From contig JAIXXN010000029.1 in the NCBI GenBank assembly GCA_027490725.1, positions 1-64,000 on the forward strand: 64,000 bases of DNA. Reading direction: 5' to 3'. The position numbers and the translations under genes are program-made. This stretch comes from Oxalobacteraceae bacterium. Its GTDB lineage: Bacteria > Pseudomonadota > Gammaproteobacteria > Burkholderiales > Burkholderiaceae_D. The notes under the pieces were generated by a model. That model did no database searches, was not told where the DNA came from, and saw only the letters and a list, made by a program, of their open reading frames with translations. Positions 27,618 to 54,970 of the stretch are shown here, piece by piece. The stretch's first letter is position 1. Every line of letters begins with the position of its first letter.

Positions 27618-27626
27618 GCGCCGCCC

Positions 27627-28080: not shown

Positions 28081-28149
28081 TGTGGCAAGTATCTTCACAC
28101 TAGGCTGCAAGCAGCACACAACAACAAATATTTACCCTTGGAGACACAA

Positions 28150-29280: not shown

Positions 29281-29295
29281 GCGTAGGGGCCCGCC

Positions 29296-30450: not shown

Positions 30451-30476
30451 ACAACCTCGCTAATTCCGGAGTTTCC

Positions 30477-31055: not shown

Positions 31056-31081
31056 CCCTAGCCAACTCACCCAAACCGCCT

Positions 31082-32089: not shown

Positions 32090-33033
32090 GCCACATTGTG
32101 ATTACCGGCGCCAGCGGCTTTGTCGGCCGTGCGCTGGTACGGCGTTTGCGCGCAGATCCGCAACATCAGCTGACCCTGATTGATCAGGCCTTTGATGCCG
32201 CTACGGACGGGCCTAACACCCGGCAATTGCTCGGCTCCTTCGGCGACCCTGCCGTACTCGATCAGGCGCTGCGTACCCCGGCCGATATCGTGTTCCATCT
32301 GGCCAGCGTACCCGGCTCACTGGCCGAACGCCAGCACGCGCTGGGCTATCAGGTCAACCTGCAAGCCACACTGACGCTGGCGCACCGGCTGGCCGCACAA
32401 GGAGAACAGCAGGGACACGTGGCACGTCTGGTGTTTGCCAGTTCGATCGCAGTCTACGGGCCGCTCGGCACCCTGCCGGTACGGGAAGGCCAGCCTGCGC
32501 AGCCGGCCATCAGCTACGGCGCTCACAAGCTGATGGCGGAGATCGAACTGGCCGACCTGAGCCGACGCGGTGCTGTGGATGCGGTCAGCCTGCGCTTACC
32601 GGGCATCGTCGCCCGCCCCGCCACCGAAACCGGGCACGGATCGGCCTTCATGAGTCTGATCATGCACCGCCTGGCGGCGGGCCAGCCTTACGTCTGTCCG
32701 GTATCGTCCGGTGCGACCGCCTGGTGGATGTCACTGCCCTGCTGCGTCGACAACCTGCTGCATGCGGCGGCCATCAGCACGGCCGACGCACCGCCCTCGC
32801 GTTGCTGGCAACTGCCGGTCCTACATCTGAGCATGCATCAGATCTTGGCAGCGCTGGAACAGCGCTATGGCGCGCAGTGCGGACAACTGCTTAGCCATCA
32901 GGTGGACCCGCAGATCGAAGCACTGTTCGGCCGCTTCCCAGCTTTGCACACGCCTGCTGCACTGGCCGCCGGCTTCCGTCACGACGGCGACGCCGACGCG
33001 CTGATCCGGCACGCCATGGCGCCAGCGCAGTAA
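32086..33033 (+). CDS. NAD-dependent epimerase/dehydratase (extended SDR)
   Basis: A 315-residue SDR with the NAD motif GASGFVGRALVRRL at the N-terminus, an active-site Ser region (FASSIAVYG), and YxxxK in SYGAHKLMAE near 144-153. It resembles the D-erythronate dehydrogenase / DenD-like group more than sugar-nucleotide epimerases. As the last gene of the operon, it may reduce or oxidise a hydroxy-acid from the A ring. Function open. Confidence 0.78.
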   Translation: MSHIVITGASGFVGRALVRRLRADPQHQLTLIDQAFDAATDGPNTRQLLGSFGDPAVLDQALRTPADIVFHLASVPGSLAERQHALGYQVNLQATLTLAHRLAAQGEQQGHVARLVFASSIAVYGPLGTLPVREGQPAQPAISYGAHKLMAEIELADLSRRGAVDAVSLRLPGIVARPATETGHGSAFMSLIMHRLAAGQPYVCPVSSGATAWWMSLPCCVDNLLHAAAISTADAPPSRCWQLPVLHLSMHQILAALEQRYGAQCGQLLSHQVDPQIEALFGRFPALHTPAALAAGFRHDGDADALIRHAMAPAQ

Positions 33034-37821: not shown

Positions 37822-39714
37822 TCAGGGCTGCTGCAGCTTCTTCATCCGGTAGGATAGCTGCGGGCGCGTCAGGCCCAGCATGCGCGCCGCCGCCGACAGA
37901 TTGCCATCGGCGCGCTTCACCGCCGCCAGTATCAGCGTGCTTTCCAGATGATCGAGCGACCAGTCCTGCTCGGCAGACGAGGCCTGCTGACGCAGCATAT
38001 CAGGCAGCACATCGAGCAAGGCGCCGCCCGGTGTCTGCGGCACTTCCTGCATATTCGGCGAATTCGGCGAATTCGGCGTGTTCGGCGTCTGGGCATTGGC
38101 CGTCAAGCGGCCGGTCTGCGCCAGCGAGAAGTACGAGGTCTGGGCTTCTTCACCGCTGGTAAACAGGTGCGGCAGATCGATCGGGCCATCCTCGTCGGCA
38201 TAGATCACGCCGCGCTCCACCAGATTCTGCAATTCGCGGATATTGCCGGGGAAATGGTAGTTGAGCAAGGCATCGACCGCCCGTGCCGTAAACCCGGTCA
38301 CGCGGCGCTGGTGCTTGTGGCCATAGTGGCGCATGAAGTAGCCCATCAGCAGCGGGATGTCGTCGCGCCGGTCACGCAGCGGTGGCAGGCGAATCGGGAA
38401 CACGTTGAGGCGGAAGAACAGATCCTCACGGAAGCGACCCTGCCGGATTTCCTCGCGCAGATCGACATTGGTCGCCGCCACCAGCCGCACGTCGACTTTG
38501 ACGCTGCGCACCCCGCCGACCCGCTCGATCTCGCCCTCCTGCAAGGCGCGCAATAGCTTGCCCTGAGCAACCAGGCTCAGCGTGCCGATTTCGTCGAGGA
38601 ACAGGGTGCCGCCGGAAGCGCGCTCGAAGCGGCCCGCGCGCGACTGGTTGGCACCAGTGTAGGCGCCGCGCTCCACGCCGAACAGTTCGGACTCGATCAG
38701 GGTCTCGGGAATCGCCGCGCAGTTCACCGCCACAAAGGCCTGCTCCTTGCGCGCGCTGATCTGATGCAGCATGTAGGCGAACAGCTCCTTGCCGACACCC
38801 GACTCGCCCGTAAACAGCACCGTGGCGGCAGTCGGCGCTACCCGTTTCAGCATATGGCAGGCAGCGTTGAAGGCCGACGATACCCCGACCATCTGCTTTT
38901 CTGCATAAGGCCGTTCGTCGTCGCCCGGCAGCGGCGCCGCCTGCTGATGCGTGGCCGGTTCGCCATAGGCGGTGGTACTGACAAACGACTCGGCATTCAG
39001 GAAGCGCAGATCGTCTTCCACATTGTCCCATTCGTCCGCCGGCTTGCCGATCAGGCGGCAGTGCTTGTGACCCATCGCCGTGCACTCGAGTTCGCGATAG
39101 ATGGTCAGCCGGCCGATCATGGCGCTAGTGTAGCCGATCGCGTAGCCGGTCTGCATCCAGCAGGCCGGTTCCGTGCCGTGGCCAAATTCGGCCGTGTGCA
39201 CTTCGGCCTCACTGGAGTGGTGCCACAGAAACTCGCCATGGTAGGTACCGCGTTCGAAGTCGAAATCAAAATGCAGCGGCTCTACCTTCACCGCCCCTTC
39301 CAGCGAATGCATGCGCGGGCCGGCCGCAAACAGCGAACCCGGTTCGGCATCGGGCCAACGTTCGCGCAGCAACTGCGCATCGCGTGCGCCAGCCGAATAG
39401 CCAACCCGGGTGAACAGGCCACGGGTGCGCTCCGGGCCGATGCTCTCCATCAGTTCGCGCCGCAGCGAACCGAGCGAAGTCAGATGTAGCAATTGCATGC
39501 GCTGGCCATTCAGCCAGATGCGCCCATCGCCCGGTGAAAAATGCAGGCTTTGGGTCAGATCGTCCAGCGTCGGGGCAGCACCGGCTTTCAGGTTCAGGCT
39601 GCCGCCCTGCTGCAACATCTTGCCACTGACCCGGGACATCTCGGCCAGCGACACGCGAGGGGGGATAGTCATGTCTCCACTTTCTTCATTTTTTATCAAA
39701 TCATACATCGACAT
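37822..39714 (-). CDS. Sigma-54-dependent activator of the XylR/DmpR family
   Basis: A 630-residue enhancer-binding protein. Residues about 30-135 form the XylR_N sensor, then a V4R domain (about 140-215; HTAEFGHGTEPACWMQTGYA). Next is the AAA+ domain with Walker A GESGVGKE, the sigma-54 contact GAYTGA and Walker B GGTLFLDEIG, and a C-terminal Fis-type helix-turn-helix (NLSAAARMLGLTRPQLSYRM). Such proteins bind phenolic effectors directly. It is divergent from the calA-containing operon, whose promoter has a -24/-12 signature at 39856, so it is the likely activator. Confidence 0.92.
   Translation of the reverse strand: MSMYDLIKNEESGDMTIPPRVSLAEMSRVSGKMLQQGGSLNLKAGAAPTLDDLTQSLHFSPGDGRIWLNGQRMQLLHLTSLGSLRRELMESIGPERTRGLFTRVGYSAGARDAQLLRERWPDAEPGSLFAAGPRMHSLEGAVKVEPLHFDFDFERGTYHGEFLWHHSSEAEVHTAEFGHGTEPACWMQTGYAIGYTSAMIGRLTIYRELECTAMGHKHCRLIGKPADEWDNVEDDLRFLNAESFVSTTAYGEPATHQQAAPLPGDDERPYAEKQMVGVSSAFNAACHMLKRVAPTAATVLFTGESGVGKELFAYMLHQISARKEQAFVAVNCAAIPETLIESELFGVERGAYTGANQSRAGRFERASGGTLFLDEIGTLSLVAQGKLLRALQEGEIERVGGVRSVKVDVRLVAATNVDLREEIRQGRFREDLFFRLNVFPIRLPPLRDRRDDIPLLMGYFMRHYGHKHQRRVTGFTARAVDALLNYHFPGNIRELQNLVERGVIYADEDGPIDLPHLFTSGEEAQTSYFSLAQTGRLTANAQTPNTPNSPNSPNMQEVPQTPGGALLDVLPDMLRQQASSAEQDWSLDHLESTLILAAVKRADGNLSAAARMLGLTRPQLSYRMKKLQQP
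38052..38087. repeat. Nine-base repeat in the regulator's interdomain linker
   Basis: Four tandem 9-bp units (TATTCGGCG, AATTCGGCG twice, TGTTCGGCG) encode the repeat TPN-SPN-SPN-N between the AAA+ domain and the DNA-binding domain. Being a multiple of three, slippage would change linker length without a frameshift. Confidence 0.9.
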
Positions 39715-39855: not shown

Positions 39856-39871
39856 TGGCACGCAACTTGTA
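39856..39871 (+). promoter_or_regulatory. Sigma-54 (-24/-12) promoter
   Basis: TGGCACGCAACTTGTA matches TGGCACG-N4-TTGCA at all but one position, with exact GG-to-TTG spacing. The start codon of the first gene is 93 bp downstream, and an XylR/DmpR-type activator is encoded divergently. Confidence 0.85.
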
Positions 39872-39963
39872 ATAGCTAAGGCAAGAGAGGCAGGCAGTAC
39901 TGCATGCAACTAGCGTGCTAGCAGACTGACTTGCCCACCCACCCCTCATCCACAGGAGACCGT

Positions 39964-41433
39964 ATGACCAACGACAAGGCGCTTTTGCGCCCATCCATCT
40001 GGCAAGACCTGATATTCAATGGCGACTGGGTCGCCGCACACGGCGGTCGTCACAGCTTCCTCGAACCTGCCACCGGCGCAGCATTAGGCAGCGTTGGCCT
40101 GGCCGATGCCGAAGACGTGGCAAGCGCCGCTACGGCAGCCCGCGCCGCGCAGGCGGCATGGGCTGCCAGCGACTACAAGGAACGCGCAGCCATCTTTCGC
40201 CGTGCCGCCGCAGCCATCGTCGAACACCATGACGAACTGGCGACCTGGATCGTGCGCGAAACCGGCGCGATCCGCCCGAAAGCCGATCTGGAACTGCGCG
40301 AGGCCGGCGCCCATCTGCAGGAAGCCGCAGCGATGCTGACCCAGCCCAAAGGCCAGTTGCTAGCCTCTGCCAGCGACCAGATGAGCATTGCTCGACGCGT
40401 CCCGCACGGCGTGGTGGGCGTGATTTCGCCGTTCAACTTCCCTTTGATTCTGTCGATACGCTCGATCGCCCCGGCGCTGGCCACCGGCAACGCGGTGGTA
40501 CACAAGCCTGACCTGCAAACGCCGATCAGTGGCGGCGTGCTGATTGCCCGCATCTTCGAAGTTGCCGGTCTGCCCAAGGGTGTGCTGCACGTGCTGCCCG
40601 GTGCAGCGGAAGCCGGTCAGGCCATGTGCAGCCACCCCGACATCGCCATGATTGCCTTCACCGGTTCCACCGCCGTGGGCCGGGCCATCGGCGAACTGGC
40701 GGGCCGCAACCTGAAGAAAATGTCGCTGGAACTGGGCGGCAAGAACTCGCTGATCATCCTCGATGATGCCGACCCGGATATCGCCGCTGCCAACGTGGCC
40801 TGGGGCGCATATCTGCATCAGGGTCAGATCTGCATGGCATCCGGGCGCATCCTGCTCCAGCGCGGCATCGCCGATGCCGTCATCGAGCGTCTGGTTGCCA
40901 AGGCCACCCATCTGCCGGTCGGCGACCCGATGAGCGGCAGCGTGGCACTCGGCCCGCTGATCAACCCGCGGCAAGTGCAGCGGGTGCATGCCATCGTGCA
41001 CGACAGCGTGGCCGCTGGCGCCACCCTGCTGGCCGGCGGCAGCTACCAGAACCAGTTCTACCAGCCCACCGTGCTGACCGGCGTGGCCCCGGGCATGCGC
41101 TGCTTCGAGGAAGAGCTGTTTGGCCCGGTCGCCTCGATCACCGTCTTCGACACCGATGAAGAGGCCATCGCACTGGCCTCCGCCACCAGCGGCTGTCTGG
41201 CGCTGGGCGTGATCACGCCGACGCTGGGGCGCGCCATGCGCATCGTCGACCGCGTACCGGCCGGCCATGTCCACATCAACGACCAGACCGTGCTGGCCGA
41301 AGCGCACGCACCATTTGGCGGCGGCGGTACCTCGGGCAATGGCGGCCGTCATGGTGGCACGTCCGACTGGGACGAGTTCACCCAGTGGCAGTGGCTGACG
41401 CTCAAAACCGAAGCGCCACGCTATCCCTTCTAA
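39964..41433 (+). CDS. Benzaldehyde/coniferaldehyde-type aldehyde dehydrogenase
   Basis: A 489-residue ALDH starting at the ATG with AGGAGACC upstream. Landmarks of the XylC-like aromatic subgroup are ARRVPHGVVGVISPFNFPL near 141-159, SLELGGKNSLIILDDAD near 257-273 and HQGQICMASGRIL near 286-298. As it is followed directly by calA, the likely substrate is coniferyl aldehyde (giving ferulate), although vanillin and benzaldehyde are also possible. First gene of the sigma-54 operon. Confidence 0.85.
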   Translation: MTNDKALLRPSIWQDLIFNGDWVAAHGGRHSFLEPATGAALGSVGLADAEDVASAATAARAAQAAWAASDYKERAAIFRRAAAAIVEHHDELATWIVRETGAIRPKADLELREAGAHLQEAAAMLTQPKGQLLASASDQMSIARRVPHGVVGVISPFNFPLILSIRSIAPALATGNAVVHKPDLQTPISGGVLIARIFEVAGLPKGVLHVLPGAAEAGQAMCSHPDIAMIAFTGSTAVGRAIGELAGRNLKKMSLELGGKNSLIILDDADPDIAAANVAWGAYLHQGQICMASGRILLQRGIADAVIERLVAKATHLPVGDPMSGSVALGPLINPRQVQRVHAIVHDSVAAGATLLAGGSYQNQFYQPTVLTGVAPGMRCFEEELFGPVASITVFDTDEEAIALASATSGCLALGVITPTLGRAMRIVDRVPAGHVHINDQTVLAEAHAPFGGGGTSGNGGRHGGTSDWDEFTQWQWLTLKTEAPRYPF

Positions 41434-41457: not shown

Positions 41458-42225
41458 ATGAAGTTACGTAACAAAACCATCGTCATCACCGGCGTAGCGT
41501 CCGGCATCGGCGCCGAAGTGGCACGGCTGGCGCGTTTTGAAGGCGCTACCGTGATCGGCATGGACCGCAACGAGCCAGGCCTGACGCTGGACGGCTTTAT
41601 CCCCGTCGATCTGGGCCAGACCGCCAGCATCGACGCCGCCATTGCCCAGCTGCCGCAACGGGTCGATGCCCTGTGCAATATCGCCGGCGTGCCCGGCACC
41701 GCCGATCCGGCACTGCTAGCACGCGTCAACTATCTCGGCCTGCGCCACCTGACGGAAGGCGTCCTGCCCCGCATGCCGGCCGGCGGCTCGATCGTCAACG
41801 TCGCCTCGATTCTAGGTGCCGAGTGGCCGCTGCGCCTCGCCCTACACAAGCAGTTGGCCGAGGTGCAGGGCTTTGCCGAAGGACAGGCCTGGCTGGACGC
41901 CCACCCGGTGCCGGCCGAGACCTGCTACCAGTACTTCAAGGAAGCACTGATCGTGTGGACCTACAGCCAGTCGCAAAAGTGGTTCCTGGCCCATTCGGTA
42001 CGCATGAACAGCGTCGCACCGGGTCCGGTCTTTACACCAATTCTGGGCGACTTCATCTCCATGCTGGGCGAAGAGCGGGTGCAGCGCGATGCCCACCGCA
42101 TGAAGCGCCCGGCCTACGCCGACGAGGTGGCGTCCGTCATCGCCTTCCTGTGCAGCGATGAATCGCGCTGGGTCAGCGGCATCAACCTGCCGGTCGACGG
42201 AGGTCTGGCTTCGACTTTTATCTGA
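41458..42225 (+). CDS. calA: Coniferyl-alcohol dehydrogenase (short-chain dehydrogenase)
   Basis: A 255-residue SDR closely matching Pseudomonas CalA in length and landmarks: GVASGIGAEVARL near 12-24, NIAGVPGTADPALLARVNYL near 77-96, the active-site region with CYQYFKEALIVW near 155-166, and the ending DGGLASTFI. It oxidises coniferyl alcohol to coniferyl aldehyde with NAD+. It lies 24 nt after the aldehyde dehydrogenase gene. Alternative family reading: hydroxysteroid dehydrogenase/carbonyl reductase. Confidence 0.88.
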   Translation: MKLRNKTIVITGVASGIGAEVARLARFEGATVIGMDRNEPGLTLDGFIPVDLGQTASIDAAIAQLPQRVDALCNIAGVPGTADPALLARVNYLGLRHLTEGVLPRMPAGGSIVNVASILGAEWPLRLALHKQLAEVQGFAEGQAWLDAHPVPAETCYQYFKEALIVWTYSQSQKWFLAHSVRMNSVAPGPVFTPILGDFISMLGEERVQRDAHRMKRPAYADEVASVIAFLCSDESRWVSGINLPVDGGLASTFI

Positions 42226-42287: not shown

Positions 42288-43991
42288 ATGCAAGCGAATC
42301 AACGCCCAAGCCTTACCGTATTGGCATTGGCCCTAGCGGCCGCCCTGCCGGCAGCCCATGCCGTCGAGTTCCAGACCGACAATCCCGAACTCAAGATCAG
42401 CTGGAACAACACCTTCAAATACAGCAGCGCCTACCGTCTCAAGGACGCCGAGGCTGGTCTGCTGGCGGGTGGCTACCCTTCTGCCGGTGCCGCGGACTTT
42501 ACCGGCTATAACCTCGACGATGGCAACCAGAACTTCCGCCGCAAAGGCATCGTCTCCAGCCGCATCGACTGGCTGTCCGAATTCGATGCCGGCACCCGCA
42601 ATCTGGGCCTGCGCATCAGCGCCGCCGCGTGGTACGACGCGTCATACAACCGCAGCAACGACAACGGCTCGGCAGGCAGCAACGCCGTCACGCTGTCCGG
42701 GCGCGCCGCCAATACCTTCGCCGATGGCACCCGGCTGCTGCACGGTCGTAACGCCGAGCTGCTGGACGCCTTCGTATTCGCCAAAGGCACGCTGGGCGAG
42801 CTGCCGGGCACCGTCCGGGTCGGCCGCCACACCCTGCAATACGGCGAGAGCCTGTTCTTCGGTGCCAACGGCATCGCCAACGCCCAGGGGCCGGTCGATC
42901 TGGTCAAGCTGCTCAGCGTACCGGGCGCCCAGTTCAAGGAAATCCTGCGCCCCGTCAATCAGATCTCCGGCCAGTTGCAGGTACTGCCCAACGTGTCGAT
43001 CGGTGGCTATTACCAGTTCGAATGGCGCCCAACCCAGATCCCGGGTGTCGGCAGTTATCTGAGTTCCTACGACGCCGCCGGCGCAGGCAACACCGCCTTC
43101 CTGGTAGCGCCAACCAACAGTGGCGCGCCAGCCTTCTACGCCGTACCGGACATGAAAGCCAGCAACTCCGGTCAGGGCGGCCTGCAAGTCAAGTACTCAC
43201 CCGCCGGCTCGGACGTCGAATACGGCTTCTATGCAGCGCGCTATCACGACAAAACGCCGTATTTCTACCTCGGCTTCGCACCCGGCTTCCCGCCCGGCGC
43301 GCCGTCGACCATCAGGGCGGCGTACGCGGAAGGCATCCGCACCTTCGGCGCCAGTGCCAGCACGGTACTGCTGGGTGCCAACGTGGCCGCCGAAGTATCG
43401 GTGCGCCGCAATTCGCCGCTGGTCAGCGATCCCACCCCTAACTTCCTGTCGCGTGCAGGCGCCGGCGTGTTCGCCGACAACAGCGGCAATCCCGGCTACG
43501 CGGTCGGCAATACTGCGCACGTCAACCTGTCAGCGATCTATGTGATGCCGACCAATCCGTTCTTCGAGGGCGCGTCGCTGCTCGGTGAACTGGCATGGAA
43601 CCGCGCCACCAGCGTCAGCTGGCAGGGATCGCTCGACCCGAACACCACCCGTGACGCCACCTCGGCACGCTTTATCTTCGAGCCAGCCTACTATCAGGTG
43701 CTGGACGGACTTGACCTGTCGGTCCCGATCGGCCTCGGCTACAACATCGACGGCCGCTCGCGCGCCATCTTCAACTTCAACGGCGGCAGCTCGCACGGCG
43801 GCGATTTCAATATCGGCGTCAACGCCACCTATCACCAGGACTGGAAGTTCGGCATCAGCTATGTGCGCTTCCTCGGCGCGGCAGGCACCTTCCTGAAAAA
43901 TAATCCGGCCACCAATACGCCCATCCTGAGCTACGCCCAGTCGCTGGCGGACCGCGATTACATCTCCTTCAATATCAAACGCGCATTCTAA
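42288..43991 (+). CDS. DUF1302 outer-membrane beta-barrel protein (module B)
   Basis: A 567-residue paralogue of the 18970 protein, with a signal peptide (cleavage after PAAHA) and the same landmarks (ISWNNTFKYSSAYRL, YGESLFFGANGIANAQGP, C-terminal IKRAF with terminal Phe). AGGAGAC precedes the ATG. First gene of the second envelope module, 62 nt after calA, so probably in the sigma-54 operon. Likely outer-membrane entry route for a lignin-type phenolic or ester. Confidence 0.85.
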   Translation: MQANQRPSLTVLALALAAALPAAHAVEFQTDNPELKISWNNTFKYSSAYRLKDAEAGLLAGGYPSAGAADFTGYNLDDGNQNFRRKGIVSSRIDWLSEFDAGTRNLGLRISAAAWYDASYNRSNDNGSAGSNAVTLSGRAANTFADGTRLLHGRNAELLDAFVFAKGTLGELPGTVRVGRHTLQYGESLFFGANGIANAQGPVDLVKLLSVPGAQFKEILRPVNQISGQLQVLPNVSIGGYYQFEWRPTQIPGVGSYLSSYDAAGAGNTAFLVAPTNSGAPAFYAVPDMKASNSGQGGLQVKYSPAGSDVEYGFYAARYHDKTPYFYLGFAPGFPPGAPSTIRAAYAEGIRTFGASASTVLLGANVAAEVSVRRNSPLVSDPTPNFLSRAGAGVFADNSGNPGYAVGNTAHVNLSAIYVMPTNPFFEGASLLGELAWNRATSVSWQGSLDPNTTRDATSARFIFEPAYYQVLDGLDLSVPIGLGYNIDGRSRAIFNFNGGSSHGGDFNIGVNATYHQDWKFGISYVRFLGAAGTFLKNNPATNTPILSYAQSLADRDYISFNIKRAF

Positions 43992-44004
43992 GGAAAAAAC
44001 TATA

Positions 44005-45369
44005 ATGAAGACGACTCTGACTATTGCCGCTGCACTGGCGCTGGTTTTCCAACTGCCATTCGCCGGCACTGCCGGCGCTGCCGTCACCGCCGATGAAGCG
44101 GCCAAACTGCACGCCACCCTGACGCCGCTGGGCGCCGAAAAAGCCGGCAACAAGGACGGCAGCATCCCGGCCTGGGATGGCGCTTACAGCAAAGTGCCGG
44201 CTGGTTACAAAGCGGGCGAGTTCCGCGCCGATCCCTTCGCCAGCGAAAAACCGACACTTAGCATCACCGGTAAAAACGTTGACCAGTACGCGGCCAAACT
44301 GTCCGCCGCCACCATCGCGCTGCTGAAAAAATACCCGGCCTACCGCATCGACATCTACCCGACCCATCGCACTGGCGGTGCTCCAGCCTGGGTCTACGAA
44401 AACACCTTCAAGAACGCCACCCGCGCCAAATCGATCGACGGCGGCTTCGGTGTAGAAGGTGCGTATGGCGGCATTCCCTTCCCGATTCCGAAGACCGGCT
44501 ACGAGGCGATGATGAACCACCGTCTGGCATGGACCGGTGAAACCACCGTGTTCCCGCTGCGTACCACCATCGTCACCCCGGACGGCAAGCGCGCCACCGC
44601 CACCGAAGCCGAACAGACCATCATGCGCCCTTACTACTTCAAGGACGGCAGTCTGGATAAGTTCGACGGCATCTACCAGTTCGGTCGCCTGATTACCCGC
44701 GCGCCCGCCTCGAAAGCCGGCGAAGGCATTCTGGTCCACGATGGCATCAGCGAAGCCCAGCCGCGCGCGATCTGGCAATATCTGGTGGGACAGCGCCGCG
44801 TGCGCCGCGCGCCGTCCGTTTCCTACGATACGCCGGACTCGGTCACTTCCGGCATCGGCCTGTTCGATGAAGCGTTCATGCTGTTCGGGCCAATCGATCA
44901 CCATGAGCTCAAGCTGGTCGGCAAAAAGGAAATGTACATCCCGTATAACAACAACCGCGCCGCTGCCGCAAAAATCGCCGATCTGGTGGGCCCGCAATTC
45001 CTCAACCCCGATCTGGTGCGCTGGGAACTGCACCGGGTCTGGGAAGTCGAAGCCACCCTGATCCCCGGCAAACGCCACGTCGTCACCAAACGCCGCTATT
45101 ACCTCGATGAAGACACCTGGCAGATCATTCTGGTCGATGGCTACGACGCACAAGGCCAGATCTGGCGCGGCAACTACACCCTGACCTTGCTGGCACCGGA
45201 CGTGCCGGCGCTGGTGGGGAATGTGATGTGGGGCACCTACAACGTGCAGACCGGCGCCTATCTGCTCAACGAAGCTTCCAACGATCTGGCGTCGCAGTAC
45301 AAGACCATTCCACGTCTGCCCGCTAGCTACTTCGGTCCCGAAGAACTGGCCAACCAGGGCTCGCGCTAA
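44005..45369 (+). CDS. DUF1329 periplasmic protein (module B)
   Basis: A 454-residue exported protein, signal peptide residues 1-26, closely paralogous to 20631: GAEKAGNKDGSIPAW, NTFKNATRAK, YGGIPFPIPKTG and LNPDLVRWELHRVWEVEATL. Probable periplasmic carrier between the barrel and the pump. Confidence 0.85.
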   Translation: MKTTLTIAAALALVFQLPFAGTAGAAVTADEAAKLHATLTPLGAEKAGNKDGSIPAWDGAYSKVPAGYKAGEFRADPFASEKPTLSITGKNVDQYAAKLSAATIALLKKYPAYRIDIYPTHRTGGAPAWVYENTFKNATRAKSIDGGFGVEGAYGGIPFPIPKTGYEAMMNHRLAWTGETTVFPLRTTIVTPDGKRATATEAEQTIMRPYYFKDGSLDKFDGIYQFGRLITRAPASKAGEGILVHDGISEAQPRAIWQYLVGQRRVRRAPSVSYDTPDSVTSGIGLFDEAFMLFGPIDHHELKLVGKKEMYIPYNNNRAAAAKIADLVGPQFLNPDLVRWELHRVWEVEATLIPGKRHVVTKRRYYLDEDTWQIILVDGYDAQGQIWRGNYTLTLLAPDVPALVGNVMWGTYNVQTGAYLLNEASNDLASQYKTIPRLPASYFGPEELANQGSR

Positions 45370-45384
45370 GTGAAGGAGGCATCG

Positions 45385-46503
45385 ATGAATCGAGTTAATT
45401 CCTTCGCGGGGCGCTGCGCGGTGCTCGCCGCGCTGACTGCCGGCGCTAGCCTGCTGCCGCTGCTGGCGCCACAGGCGCTGGCTCAGGCTGAGTCAGTGCC
45501 GAGCGCTGCGCGCGCCACGGCAGCGCTGAGCCAGCCCGCGCTGGTGACGCCCAAGGCCCTGAATGCCAGCATGCTCGCAATTGCCGCCGCCGGTCAGCGG
45601 CTGGTGGCGGCCGGCGAGCGCGGCACCATCCTGTACTCGGATGATGCCGGCAAGAGCTGGCGTCAGGCCAGCGTGCCGGTGGGCGTCAGCCTGACGGCAC
45701 TGCAATTCGTCGATGCCACACAGGGCTGGGCAGTGGGTCACCAGGGTGTGGTGCTGCATACCCGCGATGCGGGCGCTAGCTGGACCAAGCAGCTGGACGG
45801 GATACAAGCCGCCGCGCTGGTGCTGCAGGCTGCGCAACAGCTGAGCGGGGCAGAACAGGCCCGCGCGCTGGAAGACGCGCGCCACCTGATCGAGGACGGG
45901 CCGGACAAGCCCTTGCTCGACCTGTACTTCGAGAACGCCCGCAACGGCTATGTGCTGGGCGCCTACAACCTGCTGTTCAAGACCAGCGATGGCGGCGCCA
46001 CATGGCAGGCGTGGCAGCTGCATGTCGACAATCCCAAGGGCCTGCATCTGTACGGCATGCGCGGTAACGGCGCGACGCTGTATCTGGCAGGCGAACAGGG
46101 ACTGCTGCTGCGCTCCACCGATCAGGGCAACAGCTTCCGGGGCCTCGCCAGCCCCTACAAGGGCAGCTATTTCGGTGTACTGGCAGCGCGCAGCGGCGCG
46201 CTGCTTGCCTACGGTTTGCGCGGCAACGTCTACTGGTCCGGCGATCAGGGCAGCAGCTGGAGCAAGGTCGAGAGCGGCGTGCAGGCTTCCCTGTCCGGTG
46301 CCACCGAACTGGCCGACGGCACGCTGGTACTGGTGAGTCAGGGCGGCGAGGTGCTGCTCAGCCGCGACCAGGGCCGCAGCTTCAGCGCCCTTGCTGGCAC
46401 GACCTTGCCACTGGCCGCCGTTGCGCAGGCGCGCGACGGTGCGCTGGTGCTGGCGGGACTGCGCGGCATGCGCCGCATGGCCGTACCGGCCACGGCGCAA
46501 TAG
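45385..46503 (+). CDS. YCF48-like BNR-repeat periplasmic protein (module B)
   Basis: A 372-residue protein starting at the ATG with AAGGAGG upstream; a GTG 15 nt earlier is less likely. Signal-like N-terminus followed by propeller blades (YSDDAGKSWRQASVP, TSDGGATWQAW, STDQGNSFRG, SGDQGSSWSKV, SRDQGRSFSAL). Paralogue of the 22007 protein. Presumed assembly or docking partner of the adjacent pump. Confidence 0.82.
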   Translation: MNRVNSFAGRCAVLAALTAGASLLPLLAPQALAQAESVPSAARATAALSQPALVTPKALNASMLAIAAAGQRLVAAGERGTILYSDDAGKSWRQASVPVGVSLTALQFVDATQGWAVGHQGVVLHTRDAGASWTKQLDGIQAAALVLQAAQQLSGAEQARALEDARHLIEDGPDKPLLDLYFENARNGYVLGAYNLLFKTSDGGATWQAWQLHVDNPKGLHLYGMRGNGATLYLAGEQGLLLRSTDQGNSFRGLASPYKGSYFGVLAARSGALLAYGLRGNVYWSGDQGSSWSKVESGVQASLSGATELADGTLVLVSQGGEVLLSRDQGRSFSALAGTTLPLAAVAQARDGALVLAGLRGMRRMAVPATAQ

Positions 46504-46539
46504 CGCCCTCCACCCTTCACACGAACAAGCTGGAACATC

Positions 46540-49500
46540 ATGCACACAGATCAAGATTTAGAACAACAGCCAGTCGTGCGGCGGCTACAGGACTTCGACA
46601 CCGGCTCCGGCAATCTGGCCGAACGGGCGCTGTTCAACTTCCGCCCCCTGGTCATCCTGCTTTGCCTGCTGGCGACCCTGGTGCTCGGCTATCAGGCCAC
46701 CCGCATCAAGCTCAATGCCAGCTTCGAGAAGATGATCCCGAGCTTACATCCCTACGTGCTGAATTATCTGGCCAATAAGGCCGATCTCAACGGGCTGGGT
46801 AATTCGGTACGCATCGCCGTGGAAACCGGCGGCGCTTCGATTTACGAGCGCGCCTACCTCGACACCCTGCAACGTCTCAACGATGAAGTGTTCCTGTTGC
46901 CGGGCGTGGACCGGCCCTTCATGAAATCGCTGTGGACCCCGAGTACCCGCTGGGCCGCCGTCACCGAAGAAGGTCTCGATGGCGGCACCGTCATCCCGGA
47001 CGGCTACGATGGCTCGGCTGACAGCCTGACCCAGTTGCGCGCCAATATCGCCCGCTCTGGCGAAATCGGCCAGCTGGTGGCAGCCGACTTCAAGTCCAGC
47101 ATCGTGTATGTGCCGCTGCTCGAACAGAATCCGCAGACCGGCCAGGCGCTCGACTATGGGGCGCTGTCCGAGCGCCTCGAACAGATCCGCGCCAAGTACC
47201 AGAAGGAAGGCGTGCGCATCCACATCACCGGTTTCGCCAAAATCGTCGGCGATCTGATCGATGGCTTGCAGCAGGTACTGCTGTTCTTCGTACTGGCGAT
47301 CGCGATTGCCGGCGCAGTGCTGTTCTGGTACACGCGCTGCTGGCGCAGTACCACGCTGGTGGTGCTGTGTTCCCTGATCGCAGTACTGTGGCAGTGCGGC
47401 CTGCTGGCTGCCCTGCACTACGAACTCGATCCGTATTCGGTGCTGGTGCCCTTTCTGGTATTCGCCATCGGCATGAGCCACGGCGCCCAGAAAATGAACG
47501 GCATCATGCAGGACGTGGGACGCGGCACGCACCGCGTGGTGGCGGCACGCTACACCTTCCGGCGCCTGTTCGCCGCTGGTCTGACGGCGCTGCTGTGCGA
47601 CGCCGTCGGCTTCGCGGTGCTGGTCAGCATCCAGATCAAAGTCATTCAGGATCTGGCCATCATTGCCAGCATCGGCGTCGCAGTGCTGATCTTTACCAAT
47701 CTGGTACTGCTGCCGGTGCTGCTGTCCTACACCGGCGTCAGCGCCAAAGCGGCCGAGCGCAGTTTGCAGGCTGACAGTGGCGACGGCTCGGATCAGCCAT
47801 GGCTGTGGGTATTCCTGGATCGCTTCACCCAGCGCCGCTGGGCTGCCATCACGGTAGCTGCCAGTGTGCTACTGGGCGGCCTCGGCTACCTTTACAGTCT
47901 GAACCTGAAAGTGGGCGACCTCGATCCCGGTGCGCCGGAACTGCGCGCCGATTCGCGCTACAACCGTGACAACGGCTTCATGGTTGCCAACTATGCGGCC
48001 AGCTCCGACATTCTAGTGGTGATGATCAAGACCGCGCCCGACCAGTGCACCCGCTACGCCACGCTGGCCAGCGTCGATGCACTGGCCTGGCAGCTGGAAC
48101 AACTGCCGGGGGTGGATTCGACCAACTCGATGGCGGCCCTGAGCAAGCTGGCCACCACCGGCTACAACGAAGGCAACTTCAAATGGTATGACCTGATCCC
48201 CAACGCCGGTGCGCTGGGCGCAGTACAGACCCGGGCGCCACGCGAACTGTTTAACCAGAGCTGCTCGCTGCTGTCGCTGTACGTCTACCTGAAGGACCAC
48301 AAGGCGGCAACCCTGAGCCGGGTGGTCGATACCGTGGCCGCGTTTGCCGCCAGCCACGATACACCAGAGGTGCAGTTCCAGCTGGCGGCCGGCAGTGCCG
48401 GCATCGAGGCTGCCACCAACATCGTGGTCAAACAGGCCATGCACGATATGCTGTTCTGGGTCTACGGTGCGGTCATCCTGCTGTGCTACGCCACCTTCCG
48501 TAACTGGCGTGCGGTACTGGTCGCGATCCTGCCGCTGGTGCTCACCTCGATTCTGTGCGAAGTACTGATGGTGGTACTGGGCATGGGCGTAAAGGTCGCC
48601 ACCCTGCCGGTGATAGCGCTCGGCGTCGGCATCGGCGTGGACTATGCGCTGTATGTACTGAGCGTGATGCTGACCCGCATGCGCGCCGGTGCTGCACTGT
48701 CCGACGCCTACCTGCACGCCTTGCGCTTCACCGGCCGGGTGGTAATCCTGACCGGTGTGACGCTGGCCGTGGCGGTGGCGACCTGGCTGTTCTCGCCGAT
48801 CAAATTCCAGGCTGATATGGGCATCCTGCTGGCCTTCATGTTCCTGTGGAATATGGTCGGTGCACTGGTACTGGTCCCCGCGCTCGCACACTTCCTGATG
48901 CCGCAGCAACGCGCTCGCCAGCCCGCGGCATCCGAGCTGCAGCCGCGCGCCACAGCGGAAGCAGTAGGTTCGCCGGAGCCCCTCGCTGCTGCGCTGGCGG
49001 CCGCCGATACCCTGCGCCACACGGCACTTGGCGATGTGATCGGCCGCGCTGGGCGCCATCAGACGCACGCGTGGCTGGGCCTGCCGTTCGCCCAGCCACC
49101 GGTAGGTCTGTTGCGCTGGAAGGCGCCGCGCCCGGCGCAGCCGTGGCGGGACATACGCGAAGCGCTCAGCTTCGGCGCACCGGCACTGCAACTGGGCGGC
49201 GTCACGCTGGAACTGCCGCCCCAGCAATGGGGCAAGCTGGCCGGATCGGAGGACTGCCTGACGCTAAACGTGTTTGCGCCGCAGATGACGGCGGCGCAGG
49301 CCCGCGCCGTCAAACTGCCGGTGATGTTCTGGATCCATGGCGGCGCCAATACCGCTGGCACCGCCGCTACCTACACCACCTTGTGCAACCTGGCCGGCCA
49401 GGATCAGGTGATCGTGGTATCGGCCAATTACCGGCTCGGCATCCTCGGCTGGTTCAGTCTTGCCGAACTGGCGCAGCAGGAGCAGCACCCGGCCGATGCT

Positions 49501-50778
49501 TCGGGCAATTTCGGCACGCTGGATCTGATCGCGGCACTGCACTGGGTGCAGCAGCACATCGGCGCGTTTGGCGGCGATCCTGGCAACGTCACCGTATTCG
49601 GCGAATCGGCCGGCGGCCAGAATACCTACACGCTGCTGGCTAGCCCGCTGGCCAAGGGCCTGTTCCAGCGCGCCATCCTACAATCGCCGCTGGCCGTCAG
49701 CTATGCACCGGCCCAGGCGCGCAACTATAGCGACGACACCCAGCCCGGACGCGCCCTCAGTTCGCGAGAACTGCTGTGTCAATGGGTGCAGCGCAGTGGC
49801 CACGCTAGCGACCGCGCCGCCGCCAAAAGCCTGATCGCGACGATGACGCCAGAGCAGATCGCCGACTACGTGCGTGGTCTGTCCGGCGCGGCACTGCTGG
49901 CGCCGATCACAGCGGGCCCGCTCGGCTTCTACGATGCGCCCTGCGTACTCGAGGATGGCTACGTACTGCCGGCCATGCCGCTGGCTGAGGTGTTCCATGA
50001 CCGTAGCCTGTACCACGCGGTGCCGGTGATCATCGGCACCAACCGCGACGAGTACAAGCTTTTCATGTCCAGCAATCCCGACTACGTACACATGCTGTTC
50101 GGGCGCATCCCGCTGATGCGCAACCGGCGCCGCTACCAGCGTCACGCCGCGTATCTGTCAGCCTTATGGCAGGCTGCCGGTGCGCTCGATCCGGCCAGCG
50201 CCATGGTCGCTTCAGGTCACACGGATGTCTGGACCTACCGCTTCGACTGGGACGAGCAGCCAGCCATACCGCTGATCGCACCGCGGCTGCTGGTGGGCGC
50301 GGCGCACGTGCTGGAAGTGGCGTTCGTATTCCGCGATCTCGATGGCGAGTTTGATCCCACACACGCCTTCACGGCTGCCAACCGGCCCGGCCGCAAGCAA
50401 GTTTCGGACGCCATGGCCGGCTACTGGACCCATTTCGCCCGCCACGGCCTACCCGGTGGCGGCGCTGATAGCGCCCTGCCGGCCTGGACCCGCTGGAATA
50501 ACGATGCCAGTAGCGCACGCCTTATGGTGTTCGATACCAGCGCTGATGGCGGCAGCCGCATGATCGTGCACGATAACAGTGTCGCGTCGCTCAAGCTCGC
50601 CCTGGCGCGCGACCCGGCACTGCGCGACGACCCGCGCGAGCACAGCGAACTGTTCGGACGGCTGTTCCTGTGGTCGATCTTTGGCAGCTATGCCAGCGAG
50701 GAAGCGCTGGAGAGCTTCGCACGCAGCCATGGCTATACCGGCCCAACAGCAACACTGCGCCCCAGCTTCTGGCCATGA
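46540..50778 (+). CDS. MMPL/RND transporter fused to a type-B carboxylesterase
   Basis: A single 1412-residue open frame. Residues 1-787 form a complete RND/MMPL transporter paralogous to 23095 (FLVFAIGMSHGAQKMNGI, ALGVGIGVDYALYVL, last helix ending AHFLMPQQ). A polar Ala/Gln/Pro-rich linker spans about 788-827. Residues 828-1412 are a complete type-B carboxylesterase: oxyanion HGG at 933-935, nucleophile S1023 in FGESAGGQ, acid E1171 in TNRDEYKLF and H1256 in GAAHVLEVAF. No start codon with a ribosome site separates the halves. RND proteins usually end in the cytoplasm, so the esterase should lie on the cytoplasmic face. It may split an imported phenolic ester (feruloyl or coniferyl ester). 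Direction of transport and substrate are inference. Confidence 0.88.
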   Translation: MHTDQDLEQQPVVRRLQDFDTGSGNLAERALFNFRPLVILLCLLATLVLGYQATRIKLNASFEKMIPSLHPYVLNYLANKADLNGLGNSVRIAVETGGASIYERAYLDTLQRLNDEVFLLPGVDRPFMKSLWTPSTRWAAVTEEGLDGGTVIPDGYDGSADSLTQLRANIARSGEIGQLVAADFKSSIVYVPLLEQNPQTGQALDYGALSERLEQIRAKYQKEGVRIHITGFAKIVGDLIDGLQQVLLFFVLAIAIAGAVLFWYTRCWRSTTLVVLCSLIAVLWQCGLLAALHYELDPYSVLVPFLVFAIGMSHGAQKMNGIMQDVGRGTHRVVAARYTFRRLFAAGLTALLCDAVGFAVLVSIQIKVIQDLAIIASIGVAVLIFTNLVLLPVLLSYTGVSAKAAERSLQADSGDGSDQPWLWVFLDRFTQRRWAAITVAASVLLGGLGYLYSLNLKVGDLDPGAPELRADSRYNRDNGFMVANYAASSDILVVMIKTAPDQCTRYATLASVDALAWQLEQLPGVDSTNSMAALSKLATTGYNEGNFKWYDLIPNAGALGAVQTRAPRELFNQSCSLLSLYVYLKDHKAATLSRVVDTVAAFAASHDTPEVQFQLAAGSAGIEAATNIVVKQAMHDMLFWVYGAVILLCYATFRNWRAVLVAILPLVLTSILCEVLMVVLGMGVKVATLPVIALGVGIGVDYALYVLSVMLTRMRAGAALSDAYLHALRFTGRVVILTGVTLAVAVATWLFSPIKFQADMGILLAFMFLWNMVGALVLVPALAHFLMPQQRARQPAASELQPRATAEAVGSPEPLAAALAAADTLRHTALGDVIGRAGRHQTHAWLGLPFAQPPVGLLRWKAPRPAQPWRDIREALSFGAPALQLGGVTLELPPQQWGKLAGSEDCLTLNVFAPQMTAAQARAVKLPVMFWIHGGANTAGTAATYTTLCNLAGQDQVIVVSANYRLGILGWFSLAELAQQEQHPADASGNFGTLDLIAALHWVQQHIGAFGGDPGNVTVFGESAGGQNTYTLLASPLAKGLFQRAILQSPLAVSYAPAQARNYSDDTQPGRALSSRELLCQWVQRSGHASDRAAAKSLIATMTPEQIADYVRGLSGAALLAPITAGPLGFYDAPCVLEDGYVLPAMPLAEVFHDRSLYHAVPVIIGTNRDEYKLFMSSNPDYVHMLFGRIPLMRNRRRYQRHAAYLSALWQAAGALDPASAMVASGHTDVWTYRFDWDEQPAIPLIAPRLLVGAAHVLEVAFVFRDLDGEFDPTHAFTAANRPGRKQVSDAMAGYWTHFARHGLPGGGADSALPAWTRWNNDASSARLMVFDTSADGGSRMIVHDNSVASLKLALARDPALRDDPREHSELFGRLFLWSIFGSYASEEALESFARSHGYTGPTATLRPSFWP

Positions 50779-52058
50779 GCAGCCACGTCCAACCCGGTCT
50801 GTTCTGCAGCTATCAGGACGTATGGCTGCTGGACGGCCTGCGGACCCCGCTAGCCGACTACCGCGGCGCCTTCAGCCAGATCTCGCCAACCGATCTGGGT
50901 ATCAAAGTGGCCCGTGAAGTTCTGCAGCGCAGCGGCGTCGCGCCTGCCGAAATCGGTGCCGTGATCAGCGGCAATATGGCGCCCGGCGATTGCTACCAGT
51001 ACATGCTGCCGCGTCATATCGGCCTGTACGCGGGGGTGCCGCTGTCGGTCCCGGCGCTGAACGTGCAGCGCATCTGTGGCACTGGTCTCGAGCTGTTCCG
51101 TCAGGCCGGCGACCAGATTGCCCTCGGCTACACCGATACGGCGCTGGTGGTCGGCACCGAATCGATGACGCGCAATCCGATCGCCGCCTTTGAACACCGC
51201 GCCGGCTTTAAGCTAGGCGCGCCCGTGGCGTTTCAGGATTATCTGTGGGAGGCACTGATCGACCCGGCGCCCGGCATCAGCATGCCGCAGACTGCAGAAA
51301 ATCTGGCGCGCCGTTACGACATTAGCCGCGCCGACGTGGATAGCTTTGCATCCCTGTCCTACACCCGCGCTCTCGCGGCCCGCGACGGCGGCTTCCACGA
51401 TGGCGAAATCGTCGCCGTTGCCAACCAGGCCTTCACTCTGCCCGGCTATGCCGAGCGCCAGATCCGCCTGCAGGGCCAGTCTGAAGCGCTGGCCCGCGAT
51501 ACCCATCCGCGCCCCTCACCGCCCGAAGTGCTGGCCACACTGCGCCCCTTGTATCCGCAGGGCGTGCAGACCAGCGGCAACAGTTGCGCGCTGACCGATG
51601 GCGCAGCGGCCGCCATCGTCTGCAGCGGAGCTTTTGCGCGACGCGGCGGACGGCAGCCGCAGGCCCGCATCATCGCAGCGGCGCTGGTCGGCGTGCCGCC
51701 CGAAATCATGGGCATCGGCCCGGCGCCGGCGATCAGGCTGCTGCTCGAACGCTGCGGCCTGCGCCTGTCGGAGATCGGCCTATTCGAAATCAATGAAGCG
51801 CAAGGGGCGCAGATCATCGCGGTAGAAAGAGAACTGCAACTGGAGCGGGCACGCCTGAATATTCACGGCGGCGCGATTGCGCTCGGCCACCCGCTAGCGG
51901 CGACCGGGGTCAGGCTGTGCATCACGCTGGCGCGCGCGCTGATCCTGCGCGAGCAGCGCTACGGGGTGGCGGCGGCCTGCATCGGCGGTGGTCAGGGCAT
52001 CGCGCTGCTGTTGGAGAACCCCCACTGGCAAGCGTTACAGCACCATGGCGCTCAGTGA
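50775..52058 (+). CDS. Thiolase-family acyl-CoA acetyltransferase
   Basis: A 427-residue thiolase. The ATG at 50775 overlaps the fusion gene's stop by ATGA. Catalytic Cys in QRICGTGLEL near 98, His in ALGHPLAATG and Cys in ACIGGGQG near the C-terminus are all present. Ferulate clusters of Pseudomonas carry a similar thiolase gene (aat) beside fcs/ech, with no essential role shown for the hydratase-lyase route. It may serve a beta-oxidation-like branch. Its last 24 nt overlap the convergent MarR gene. Confidence 0.85.
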   Translation: MSSHVQPGLFCSYQDVWLLDGLRTPLADYRGAFSQISPTDLGIKVAREVLQRSGVAPAEIGAVISGNMAPGDCYQYMLPRHIGLYAGVPLSVPALNVQRICGTGLELFRQAGDQIALGYTDTALVVGTESMTRNPIAAFEHRAGFKLGAPVAFQDYLWEALIDPAPGISMPQTAENLARRYDISRADVDSFASLSYTRALAARDGGFHDGEIVAVANQAFTLPGYAERQIRLQGQSEALARDTHPRPSPPEVLATLRPLYPQGVQTSGNSCALTDGAAAAIVCSGAFARRGGRQPQARIIAAALVGVPPEIMGIGPAPAIRLLLERCGLRLSEIGLFEINEAQGAQIIAVERELQLERARLNIHGGAIALGHPLAATGVRLCITLARALILREQRYGVAAACIGGGQGIALLLENPHWQALQHHGAQ

Positions 52059-52493
52059 ACGCAGCAGTACCCGCAGTTGCGCATGCAGTGCAGTGCACTG
52101 CTCGGGGTTCAGTTCGTCCAGCATGGCGCGTTCCAGCGCCGCCACGGCGGCATCGCCCTGGCGCAGCAAGGCGCTGCCTTCGGCGCTCAGACGCAGATGG
52201 ATGATGCGGCCATGATAGGCATCGGCCTGGCGCACCACCCAGCCGCGCGCCTCCATGACCTTGACCATCTCGTTAGCCGATTGCGGCGAGATCATCGAGC
52301 GTTCGGCCAGCTGTGCATTCGACAGCTGCTGCTGGGTGTCGAGCACCGACAGCGCCGTGTACTGGGCGGCGCTCAGACCGAGTGCGCCGAGGCTGTCGCG
52401 CAGGCGCCGGCTCAGCACATGATCGAGGCGACCGATCAGATAGGCAATGCCGCTGGGTTTGTCATTTGCCGCCACAGGCGCTACTGGTTTCAT
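52035..52493 (-). CDS. MarR-family regulator of the ech-vdh-fcs genes
   Basis: A MarR winged-helix protein (152 residues from the ATG at 52493; an upstream ATG at 52535 would add 14). Recognition region QLSNAQLAERSMISPQSANE, wing with DAYHGRIIHLRLSAEG. Divergent from ech. MarR proteins such as FerC, CouR and HcaR repress hydroxycinnamate genes and release DNA on binding the CoA thioester, so the same is likely here. I prefer the later start because a TATAAT-like box (52556-52561, minus strand) leaves no leader for the upstream one. Confidence 0.85.
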   Translation of the reverse strand: MKPVAPVAANDKPSGIAYLIGRLDHVLSRRLRDSLGALGLSAAQYTALSVLDTQQQLSNAQLAERSMISPQSANEMVKVMEARGWVVRQADAYHGRIIHLRLSAEGSALLRQGDAAVAALERAMLDELNPEQCTALHAQLRVLLRSLSAMVL

Positions 52494-52529
52494 CGGAATC
52501 CGGAAGGTAAAAAAACGTTCGAAAAGCCC

Positions 52530-52557
52530 TTGCATAACACATCAGGCAGCATATATT
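52530..52557 (+). promoter_or_regulatory. Possible -35/-10 promoter of ech
   Basis: TTGCAT (52530-52535) and TATATT (52552-52557) are separated by 16 bp, and the MarR operator candidates follow directly. The -35 match is weak; spacing and position are good. Confidence 0.4.
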
Positions 52558-52610: not shown

Positions 52611-53444
52611 ATGAACCAATATGAACAGCGCTGGAGCACCGTCAAAGTCGAGATTACCGATGGCATCGCCTGGGTGACCCTGAACCGTCCCGAAAAGCGC
52701 AATGCCATGAGCCCGACCCTGAATCGCGAAATGATCGATGTACTGGAAACGCTGGAACTCGATCCGGCGGCAGAAGTGCTGGTGCTGACCGGTGCCGGCG
52801 ACAGCTGGACCGCCGGCATGGACCTCAAAGAATACTTCCGCGAGAACGACGGCAAGCCGGAGATCTTCCAGGAAAAGCTGCGCCGCGACTGCTCGCAATG
52901 GCAATGGAAGCTGCTGCGCATGTATAGCAAACCGACCATCGCCATGGTCAACGGCTGGTGCTTCGGCGGTGCCTTCTCGCCACTGGTGGCCTGCGATCTG
53001 GCGATCTCTGCTGACGAAGCCGTGTATGGCCTGTCGGAAATTAACTGGGGTATCCCGCCCGGCAATCTGGTCAGCAAAGCGGTCGCCGACACCATGGGTC
53101 ACCGTCAGGCACTGCACTACATCATGACCGGCGACACCTTTACCGGTCAGGAAGCAGCAGCCATGGGGCTGGTCAACAAGAGCGTGCCGCTGGCACAGCT
53201 GCGCGCGGCCACCATCGAACTGGCCGAAAAGCTGCTGGCCAAATCGCCGACCGTGCTGCGCATCGCCAAGAACGGCTTCAAGCGCTGCCGCGAACTGACC
53301 TGGGAGCAGAACGAAGACTATCTGTACGCCAAGGTCGACCAGTCCAATTATCGCGATCCGGAAAAAGGCCGTGCGCAGGGTCTCAAGCAGTTCCTCGACG
53401 ACAAAACCATCAAACCAGGTCTGCAAACCTACAAGCGCGCCTAA
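52611..53444 (+). CDS. ech: Hydroxycinnamoyl-CoA hydratase-lyase (feruloyl-CoA)
   Basis: A 277-residue crotonase-superfamily enzyme hydrating feruloyl-, p-coumaroyl- or caffeoyl-CoA and cleaving it to the aldehyde plus acetyl-CoA. Typical family features: GDSWTAGMDLKEYFRE near 63-78, WCFGGAFSPLVACDLAI near 122-138 and SEINWGIPPGNLVS near 143-156, containing the active-site Glu and the oxyanion-hole Gly residues. First gene of ech-vdh-fcs. Confidence 0.95.
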   Translation: MNQYEQRWSTVKVEITDGIAWVTLNRPEKRNAMSPTLNREMIDVLETLELDPAAEVLVLTGAGDSWTAGMDLKEYFRENDGKPEIFQEKLRRDCSQWQWKLLRMYSKPTIAMVNGWCFGGAFSPLVACDLAISADEAVYGLSEINWGIPPGNLVSKAVADTMGHRQALHYIMTGDTFTGQEAAAMGLVNKSVPLAQLRAATIELAEKLLAKSPTVLRIAKNGFKRCRELTWEQNEDYLYAKVDQSNYRDPEKGRAQGLKQFLDDKTIKPGLQTYKRA

Positions 53445-54956: not shown

Positions 54957-54970
54957 GGGAGGAGTCCGCA

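Follow-up and report, generated by a model that had tools for sequence, protein, structure and literature searches.

The DNA analysed here is a 64,000-nucleotide stretch (the window) of contig JAIXXN010000029.1, assembly GCA_027490725.1, from an Oxalobacteraceae bacterium, and the gene in question joins an RND/MMPL transporter to a carboxylesterase. Direct translation of the forward strand from position 46540 to 50778 gives a single open frame of 1412 codons with no internal stop. Pfam MMPL matches the protein in two stretches (1.7e-21, above the curated cut-off) and Pfam COesterase (PF00135) matches residues 825-1182 (2.1e-87; 294.7 bits against a gathering score of 27). The closest solved structures to the esterase half, by sequence, are carboxylic ester hydrolases, and its triad, S1023, E1171 and H1256 (the acid assigned by motif), is kept in the alignment of all 12 fused proteins found. 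These matches and the invariant triad bear out the original prediction that a full transporter and a full type-B esterase with an intact triad share one frame. Ordinary type-B carboxylesterases of PF00135, such as the Bacillus p-nitrobenzyl esterase (1qe3), have the same family and triad; in contrast to the fused protein, the six that we aligned mostly lack its C-terminal extension. The fused copy of Duganella lactea (L044; L numbers are our labels for loci) is without this extension.

The transporter half contains 12 transmembrane helices (TM). A hydropathy scan of the fused protein recovered 10 of the 12, together with one false call within the esterase, and the two missed helices were placed by eye at 292-343 and about 625-650. 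Large periplasmic loops are predicted at residues 50-245 and 455 to about 620. An AlphaFold2 model of the C-terminal half of the transporter shows six helices, TM7-12, with a predicted local distance difference test score (pLDDT) of about 60-86. When the esterase is included the mean pLDDT is 54.3, with the transporter helices usable and the esterase part not, and the esterase modelled alone reaches a mean of only 50.5, so that the structure prediction proposed for the fusion yields the helices of TM7-12 but places the esterase with low confidence. TM10 carries the motif G-V-D701-Y702 (48640-48645), a D-Y pair that MmpL proteins also have, and TM4 carries G-M-S313-H314 (47476-47481). The S-H pair is present at the TM4 place in 12 of 12 fused proteins and also in the two transporters fused to other enzymes, L192 and L194, that are described below. 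By these motifs, the transporter appears to keep just one of the two parts that usually make up the proton-relay pair.

The fused frame was sought in 392 genomes of the family and in a species-representative collection, the frames then being read directly, and is present in 12 distinct genomes of the family, i.e. the source genome and 11 others. They belong to Duganella, Janthinobacterium and an unclassified Oxalobacteraceae bacterium, and the rest to the window's own genus. This is the architecture search that the original prediction had called for. In 16 of the 99 loci read (11 distinct genomes after removal of duplicate contigs) at least 561 residues follow the transporter match before the stop is reached, and in the remaining loci at most 54. 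In the 392 family genomes only the best candidates were scored, two per genome, or three in the esterase search of these genomes. The latter found the esterase at E <= 1e-60 in 17 genomes; two of these matches are remote (37-42% identical) and 15 are close (53-100%). Of the close ones, 11 are fused to the transporter, two lie directly behind it and two lie behind it with a chemoreceptor gene between.

Among 369 genomes of the class, with the two best candidates scored per genome, the window's match is the only one at E <= 1e-150 to extend over the esterase, and none of 72,556 plasmid records contains a region that alone covers 80% of the fused protein. In 398 genomes of the phylum, again with two candidates scored per genome, 52 have a transporter match and, by frame length, only that of the window reads as fused; three of the longest frames in this survey were checked by hand and are not fused. 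Open-frame length is a poor sign of fusion: when 21 loci, most of them chosen for long frames, were read to the stop, 19 ended within 35 residues of the transporter match and two were fused to another enzyme. A phage collection gave four weak esterase matches only (29.9-40.6% identical, none over more than a third of the query), and three distant esterases came from viral contigs, which were scanned to enlarge the esterase alignment.

Both halves are under purifying selection. Ratios of nonsynonymous to synonymous substitution (dN/dS, Nei-Gojobori) in eight pairs are 0.04-0.16 for the transporter and 0.15-0.30 for the esterase. The linkers diverge faster than both halves, one pair giving a dN/dS of 1.68 over 11 codons, and their length varies from about 10 to 35 residues across the fused proteins, being about 10 in one clade. 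No ATG occurs between TM12 and the esterase core in any of the 12 fused genes; GTG codons occur there in 10, and L038 and L044 have no ATG, GTG or TTG in this interval. That the esterase is translated on its own from within these genes is therefore unlikely, though conceivable in the ten with a GTG.

Six relatives carry the transporter and the esterase as two genes. In L049 and L051 the two genes overlap or abut in different frames, and in the other four (L047, L048, L063 and L065) a chemoreceptor gene with the domains 4HB_MCP_1 and MCPsignal lies between them. We built trees from 18 rows, 12 fused and six split, with both halves joined. The fused rows do not form one clade (approximately unbiased (AU) test, p 0.000145), and well-supported branches force at least four changes between the fused and split states (three on the transporter tree alone and two on the esterase tree alone). 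In the joined tree the window falls together with two split forms of the chemoreceptor type (support 85/76), and another such form is the sister of L038 (100/99). A single origin of the fusion is thus rejected by the AU test for this sample, a pattern that recombination between loci could mimic, and the fusion appears to have arisen or reverted repeatedly, gain and loss fitting the tree alike. Because the four chemoreceptor-type split forms share both the chemoreceptor gene and PDILL in the start of the esterase, the simplest history is that at least two separate fusions occurred in the chemoreceptor clade, each time when the chemoreceptor gene and the esterase's original start were lost. A short alignment is suggestive of the window's linker being composed of the old transporter tail and the old esterase spacer. 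The chemoreceptor between transporter and hydrolase in several relatives is also a hint that the substrate is sensed by chemotaxis.

The stand-alone relatives bear on where the esterase sits. In a scan with a home-made rule for signals and anchors, none of the six stand-alone operon-linked esterases shows a Sec-like signal (the start of L051 being assumed), in contrast to 16 of 17 ordinary carboxylesterases of the genus (full-length sequences from 30 loci, with the window's own and one duplicate left out), which look secreted. Three of the six have an N-terminal hydrophobic segment followed by 3-5 Arg/Lys residues, an arrangement of the N-out/C-in type. According to the positive-inside rule, Arg/Lys residues after a hydrophobic segment mark the cytoplasmic side, so these three anchored esterases are predicted to be cytoplasmic. 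With the even number of transporter helices and the lack of a signal peptide, this makes it most likely that the esterase works at the cytoplasmic face, as had been proposed for it. Since the stand-alone forms have anchors or free starts and no secretion signals, the fusion would have replaced an anchor or a free cytoplasmic start, not a secretion route.

The predicted genes around the fusion make this a coniferyl-alcohol/hydroxycinnamate catabolic locus with a sigma-54 activator (Table 1). A -24/-12-like site with 10 of 11 consensus bases lies in the intergenic stretch next to the divergent activator gene. None of 300 shuffles of this stretch reaches a score of 10 and eight reach 9, and the best site in the same stretch scores at least 9 in 20 of 25 relatives. 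The window as a whole has 11 such sites against 6.9 expected, which is not above chance, so that the evidence for this site is its place and its conservation. No NCBIfam cut-off is reached by the calB-like aldehyde dehydrogenase among the matches listed. Homology of the thiolase begins near residue 46-53 of its longest open reading frame (50670-52058), and the start given in the table is putative. The fused gene had been described as standing directly before thiolase and ech-vdh-fcs; the thiolase does adjoin it, but a divergent MarR-type gene intervenes before ech, and for this reason ech-vdh-fcs may form a separate transcription unit.

Table 1. Features of the fused gene, its locus and module A in the window, and chemoreceptor genes of related loci (positions in those loci).
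Feature	Position	Strand	Basis or remark
XylR/DmpR-type sigma-54 activator	37822..39714	-	Pfam XylR_N, V4R, Sigma54_activat, HTH_8; divergent
Sigma-54 -24/-12-like site TGGCACGCAACTTGTA	39856..39871	+	10/11 consensus bases
Aldehyde dehydrogenase, calB-like by position	39931..41433	+	Pfam Aldedh
Coniferyl-alcohol dehydrogenase calA	41458..42225	+	NCBIfam NF009092, 410 bits vs cut-off 242
DUF1302 outer-membrane protein, AmeA-like	42288..43991	+	Pfam
DUF1329 periplasmic protein, AmeB-like	44005..45369	+	Pfam
YCF48/BNR periplasmic protein, AmeC-like	45370..46503	+	Pfam
Transporter half, AmeD-type, HAE3-like RND/MMPL	46540..48900	+	Residues 1-787, 12 TM; Pfam MMPL
Linker	48904..49008	+	Residues 789-823; between transporter and esterase core
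Type-B carboxylesterase core	49009..50571	+	Pfam PF00135; triad S1023/E1171/H1256
Esterase C-terminal extension	50572..50775	+	~68 residues, about 1345-1412
Thiolase	50808..52058	+	Pfam Thiolase_N/C; putative start
MarR-type regulator	52035..52535	-	Pfam MarR_2; between thiolase and ech
ech	52611-53444	+	NF006588 p-hydroxycinnamoyl-CoA hydratase/lyase, 493.6 bits vs 276
vdh-like aldehyde dehydrogenase	53502-54956	+	Pfam Aldedh only; no vdh-specific model among matches listed
fcs-like acyl-CoA ligase	54953-56839	+	NF009232, 695 bits vs 777, under cut-off
Module A, unfused paralogous transporter	23095-25473	+	68% identical
Module A, hydrolase	25474-26643	+	Peptidase_S9/FrsA-like; 0 nt gap after transporter
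Chemoreceptor gene, L047	5514-7139	-	
Chemoreceptor gene, L048	7697-9277	-	
Chemoreceptor gene, L063	12384-14069		
Chemoreceptor gene, L065	12387-14102		
Chemoreceptor gene, L084	12387-14030		

The best NCBIfam match of the transporter is TIGR00921 (HAE3), at 138.8 bits against a cut-off of 351.9. The unfused paralogous transporter of the window also stays under the cut-off (137.2 bits), and this model may therefore not cover the lineage. The order DUF1302-DUF1329-YCF48-MMPL at 42288-48900 is that of AmeABCD-type systems, and by its cassette we class the transporter as AmeABCD-type and not as a member of TIGR00921. AmeABCD of Castellaniella defragrans consists of an HAE3 RND protein with DUF1302, DUF1329 and photosystem-II-assembly-type partners (PMC6394551), and, in the parts of that paper drawn on here, it resembles our locus in its four-gene order, in a 12-TM transporter of ~790 residues and in a catabolic setting. 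It differs in that AmeD (787 aa) is given no enzyme domain, the substrates are monoterpenes and the system is described as efflux. A second comparable set is PP_0765/PP_0766/PP_2018/PP_2019 of Pseudomonas putida, with DUF1302, DUF1329, a periplasmic protein and an efflux-type transporter; unlike in our locus the genes lie at two places, and the portion of the source used here mentions no fusion (PMC10866462). In a nanopod paper, as far as excerpted, DUF1302 and DUF1329 proteins are listed among nanopod/outer-membrane proteins (PMC3110197). The nearest homologue of the esterase met elsewhere is encoded on the Pseudomonas plasmid pSTY (VLB120), 42% identical over 98%, and also on a P. putida S12 plasmid. 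The pSTY enzyme aligns to residue 597 of 599, extension included, and has no signal peptide, but no such transporter lies beside it in 25.8 kb; it adjoins an AraC-type regulator near phenylacetate genes. The pairing had been put forward as undescribed, and full-text searches of the open-licence literature, outside which most subscription papers lie, returned no description of it, of its recurrence or of the other enzyme fusions below. Each half comes from a known family, and the pairing, its recurrence and those fusions appear new, not having been met in the literature searched.

Linkage of a hydrolase to the transporter was read in the best 80 of at least 591 loci, a sample that is biased because loci were ranked on their resemblance to the complete fused protein, with its esterase. 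The sequence available behind the transporter is shorter than 6 kb in six of the 80 loci, and that in front of it is shorter than 6 kb in eight. Up to 6 kb downstream of the transporter and on its strand, the carboxylesterase is present in eight loci, an Abhydrolase_3-type hydrolase in 12 and a module A type hydrolase in two. Abhydrolase_3 hydrolases behind the transporter are found in other families. Between the two genes lies a chemoreceptor gene in L084 and a periplasmic binding protein gene in L089 and L098.

Two further transporters carry a different enzyme at the C-terminus. L192:2058-6068 (-) immediately follows YCF48 and DUF1329 genes and encodes an AmeD-type transporter (1336 aa in all) that ends in an AMP-binding acyl-CoA ligase (6e-59). 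L194:496-4542 (-), preceded by a YCF48 gene and a thiolase gene, encodes one (1348 aa) that ends in an FAD_binding_2 dehydrogenase domain (7.8e-81). Both belong to the same transporter family, at about 40% identity.

We interpret the fused protein as one that couples uptake of a substrate to its first cytoplasmic step, and we give this reading a probability of about 0.5. In the proposed scheme, the DUF1302 outer-membrane protein and the periplasmic DUF1329 and YCF48 proteins would bring a hydrophobic phenylpropanoid ester from plants to the AmeD-type transporter, and the carboxylesterase, tethered at the cytoplasmic end of TM12, would hydrolyse the ester on arrival and so keep an inward gradient. 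The alcohol and acid products would then pass to the CalA/CalB and Fcs-Ech-Vdh enzymes that this locus encodes. Coniferyl ferulate, a monolignol ester, is an example of a substrate that would supply both branches and use every enzyme named. The fusion itself would, most simply, have arisen more than once from neighbouring genes, with an esterase that was already a cytoplasmic-face protein. Besides the conservation, sidedness and locus evidence given above, the Abhydrolase_3 hydrolases behind the transporter in other families and the L192 and L194 fusions to enzymes of catabolic type speak for this scheme. The working mode may be likened to that of LplT and Aas, which is meant as a functional analogy only. 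LplT belongs to another transporter superfamily, the major facilitator superfamily (MFS), and Aas is another enzyme. LplT is reported to flip lysophospholipid to the cytoplasmic face, where its partner Aas modifies it; the genes are adjacent in many bacteria and form one open reading frame in some (PMC11416262, as excerpted).

Several observations weigh against this scheme. Half of the calA-linked loci (17 of 34 among the best 80 of at least 591) have none of the three hydrolase types within 6 kb behind the transporter, and the genome of fused L042 has a second calA/calB-linked operon, L052, with a transporter 79% identical and no esterase behind it; on both counts the esterase is to be seen as accessory. 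The esterases of L048, L049 and L051 have no anchor, and membrane attachment is therefore not universal. Low confidence for the esterase in both AlphaFold2 models, and the status of the L192 and L194 fusions as single cases in draft genomes, count on the same side. In the published account of AmeABCD, cells with the deletion tolerated monoterpenes less well and showed a higher net influx of Nile Red, which its authors read as efflux (PMC6394551, in the part used). Expression of E. coli LplT was disrupted when Aas was attached to its C-terminus, so the analogy is no template (PMC11416262, same excerpt). The direction of transport, which we take to be inward, is the weak step of the scheme.

The strongest alternative, possible but clearly less probable than coupled uptake, is that the halves are tethered without being coupled. 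An intervening gene lost from a tight, overlapping operon would have joined two frames, and the product would be a tolerated by-product; the esterase would work no less well when anchored by itself or free than when joined to the transporter, and fusing the two would do no more than fix stoichiometry and membrane location. The genes of split relatives lie few bases apart or overlap, so that deletions can fuse them; the linker, at about 10 to 35 residues, evolves fast, and split forms persist among close relatives. This account has to contend with the occurrence of fused forms at several points of the tree, with an open frame and an unchanged triad in all 12 of them, and with the two other enzyme types on the same transporter C-terminus.

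Efflux-linked detoxification, in which the esterase converts an incoming lipophilic ester and the pump expels the accumulated product, is a doubtful alternative. It would agree with the AmeABCD phenotype as published (PMC6394551, in part) and with the efflux-type name of the best NCBIfam match, although that match is under its cut-off. However, the enzymes of the locus would consume the products. An ameB insertion in Castellaniella, cited in the same excerpt, led to poorer growth on several monoterpenes, although lost tolerance could explain this (PMC6394551). The DUF1302 and DUF1329 proteins of P. putida are reported as essential for Tween 20 metabolism, with substrate transport proposed (PMC10866462, in the portion used), and a 2026 paper on benzene degraders, as excerpted, states that the direction of transport cannot yet be confirmed and cites impaired growth on phenanthrene after DUF1329 deletion (PMC13101534). 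An assembly or sequencing artefact removing a stop codon at 48880-49030, raised with the original prediction and backed by no sign that we found, is practically ruled out as the cause of the fusion, since the one-frame architecture recurs in 11 other distinct genomes with different linkers, of which L038 and L044 lack any ATG, GTG or TTG codon between TM12 and the esterase core.

Returning to coupled uptake, a tentative extension is that AmeD-type RND transporters, although described as efflux pumps, in general import hydrophobic growth substrates and that their cytoplasmic C-terminus is a docking site for the first catabolic enzyme. A carboxylesterase, an acyl-CoA ligase and a FAD dehydrogenase, fused repeatedly, might then represent vectorial catabolism by an RND protein. 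Searches for relatives of the L192 and L194 fusions gave no fused one, in groups of only 3 and 5 genomes. Against a general rule of this kind stand the 17 of 34 calA-linked loci that have none of the three hydrolase types, and the phylum survey, where 52 transporter-bearing genomes gave by frame length no fusion besides that of the window.

Several organisms that degrade hydrophobic compounds have DUF1302/DUF1329/YCF48/RND systems, and whether these import or export is disputed or left open in the papers as excerpted here. Such a naturally fused protein, with its catabolic enzyme facing the cytoplasm, may serve as a built-in reporter of this choice. If transport is inward, RND proteins would have to be counted among the systems by which plant phenylpropanoids and further apolar compounds are taken up, and the fusion could then be used as a ready-made transporter-enzyme module for compounds derived from lignin.

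The window holds a second DUF1302-DUF1329-YCF48-transporter cassette in module A (18889-33033). Its transporter was said to be followed at 0 nt by a separate hydrolase of another fold; the gap of 0 nt and the different family hold, but the Peptidase_S9-like hydrolase has the same alpha/beta-hydrolase fold as the carboxylesterase. Behind this transporter and hydrolase come glyoxalase-like, FAD-binding monooxygenase-type, MFS, cupin and fumarylacetoacetate-hydrolase genes, and module A looks like another aromatic catabolic cluster.

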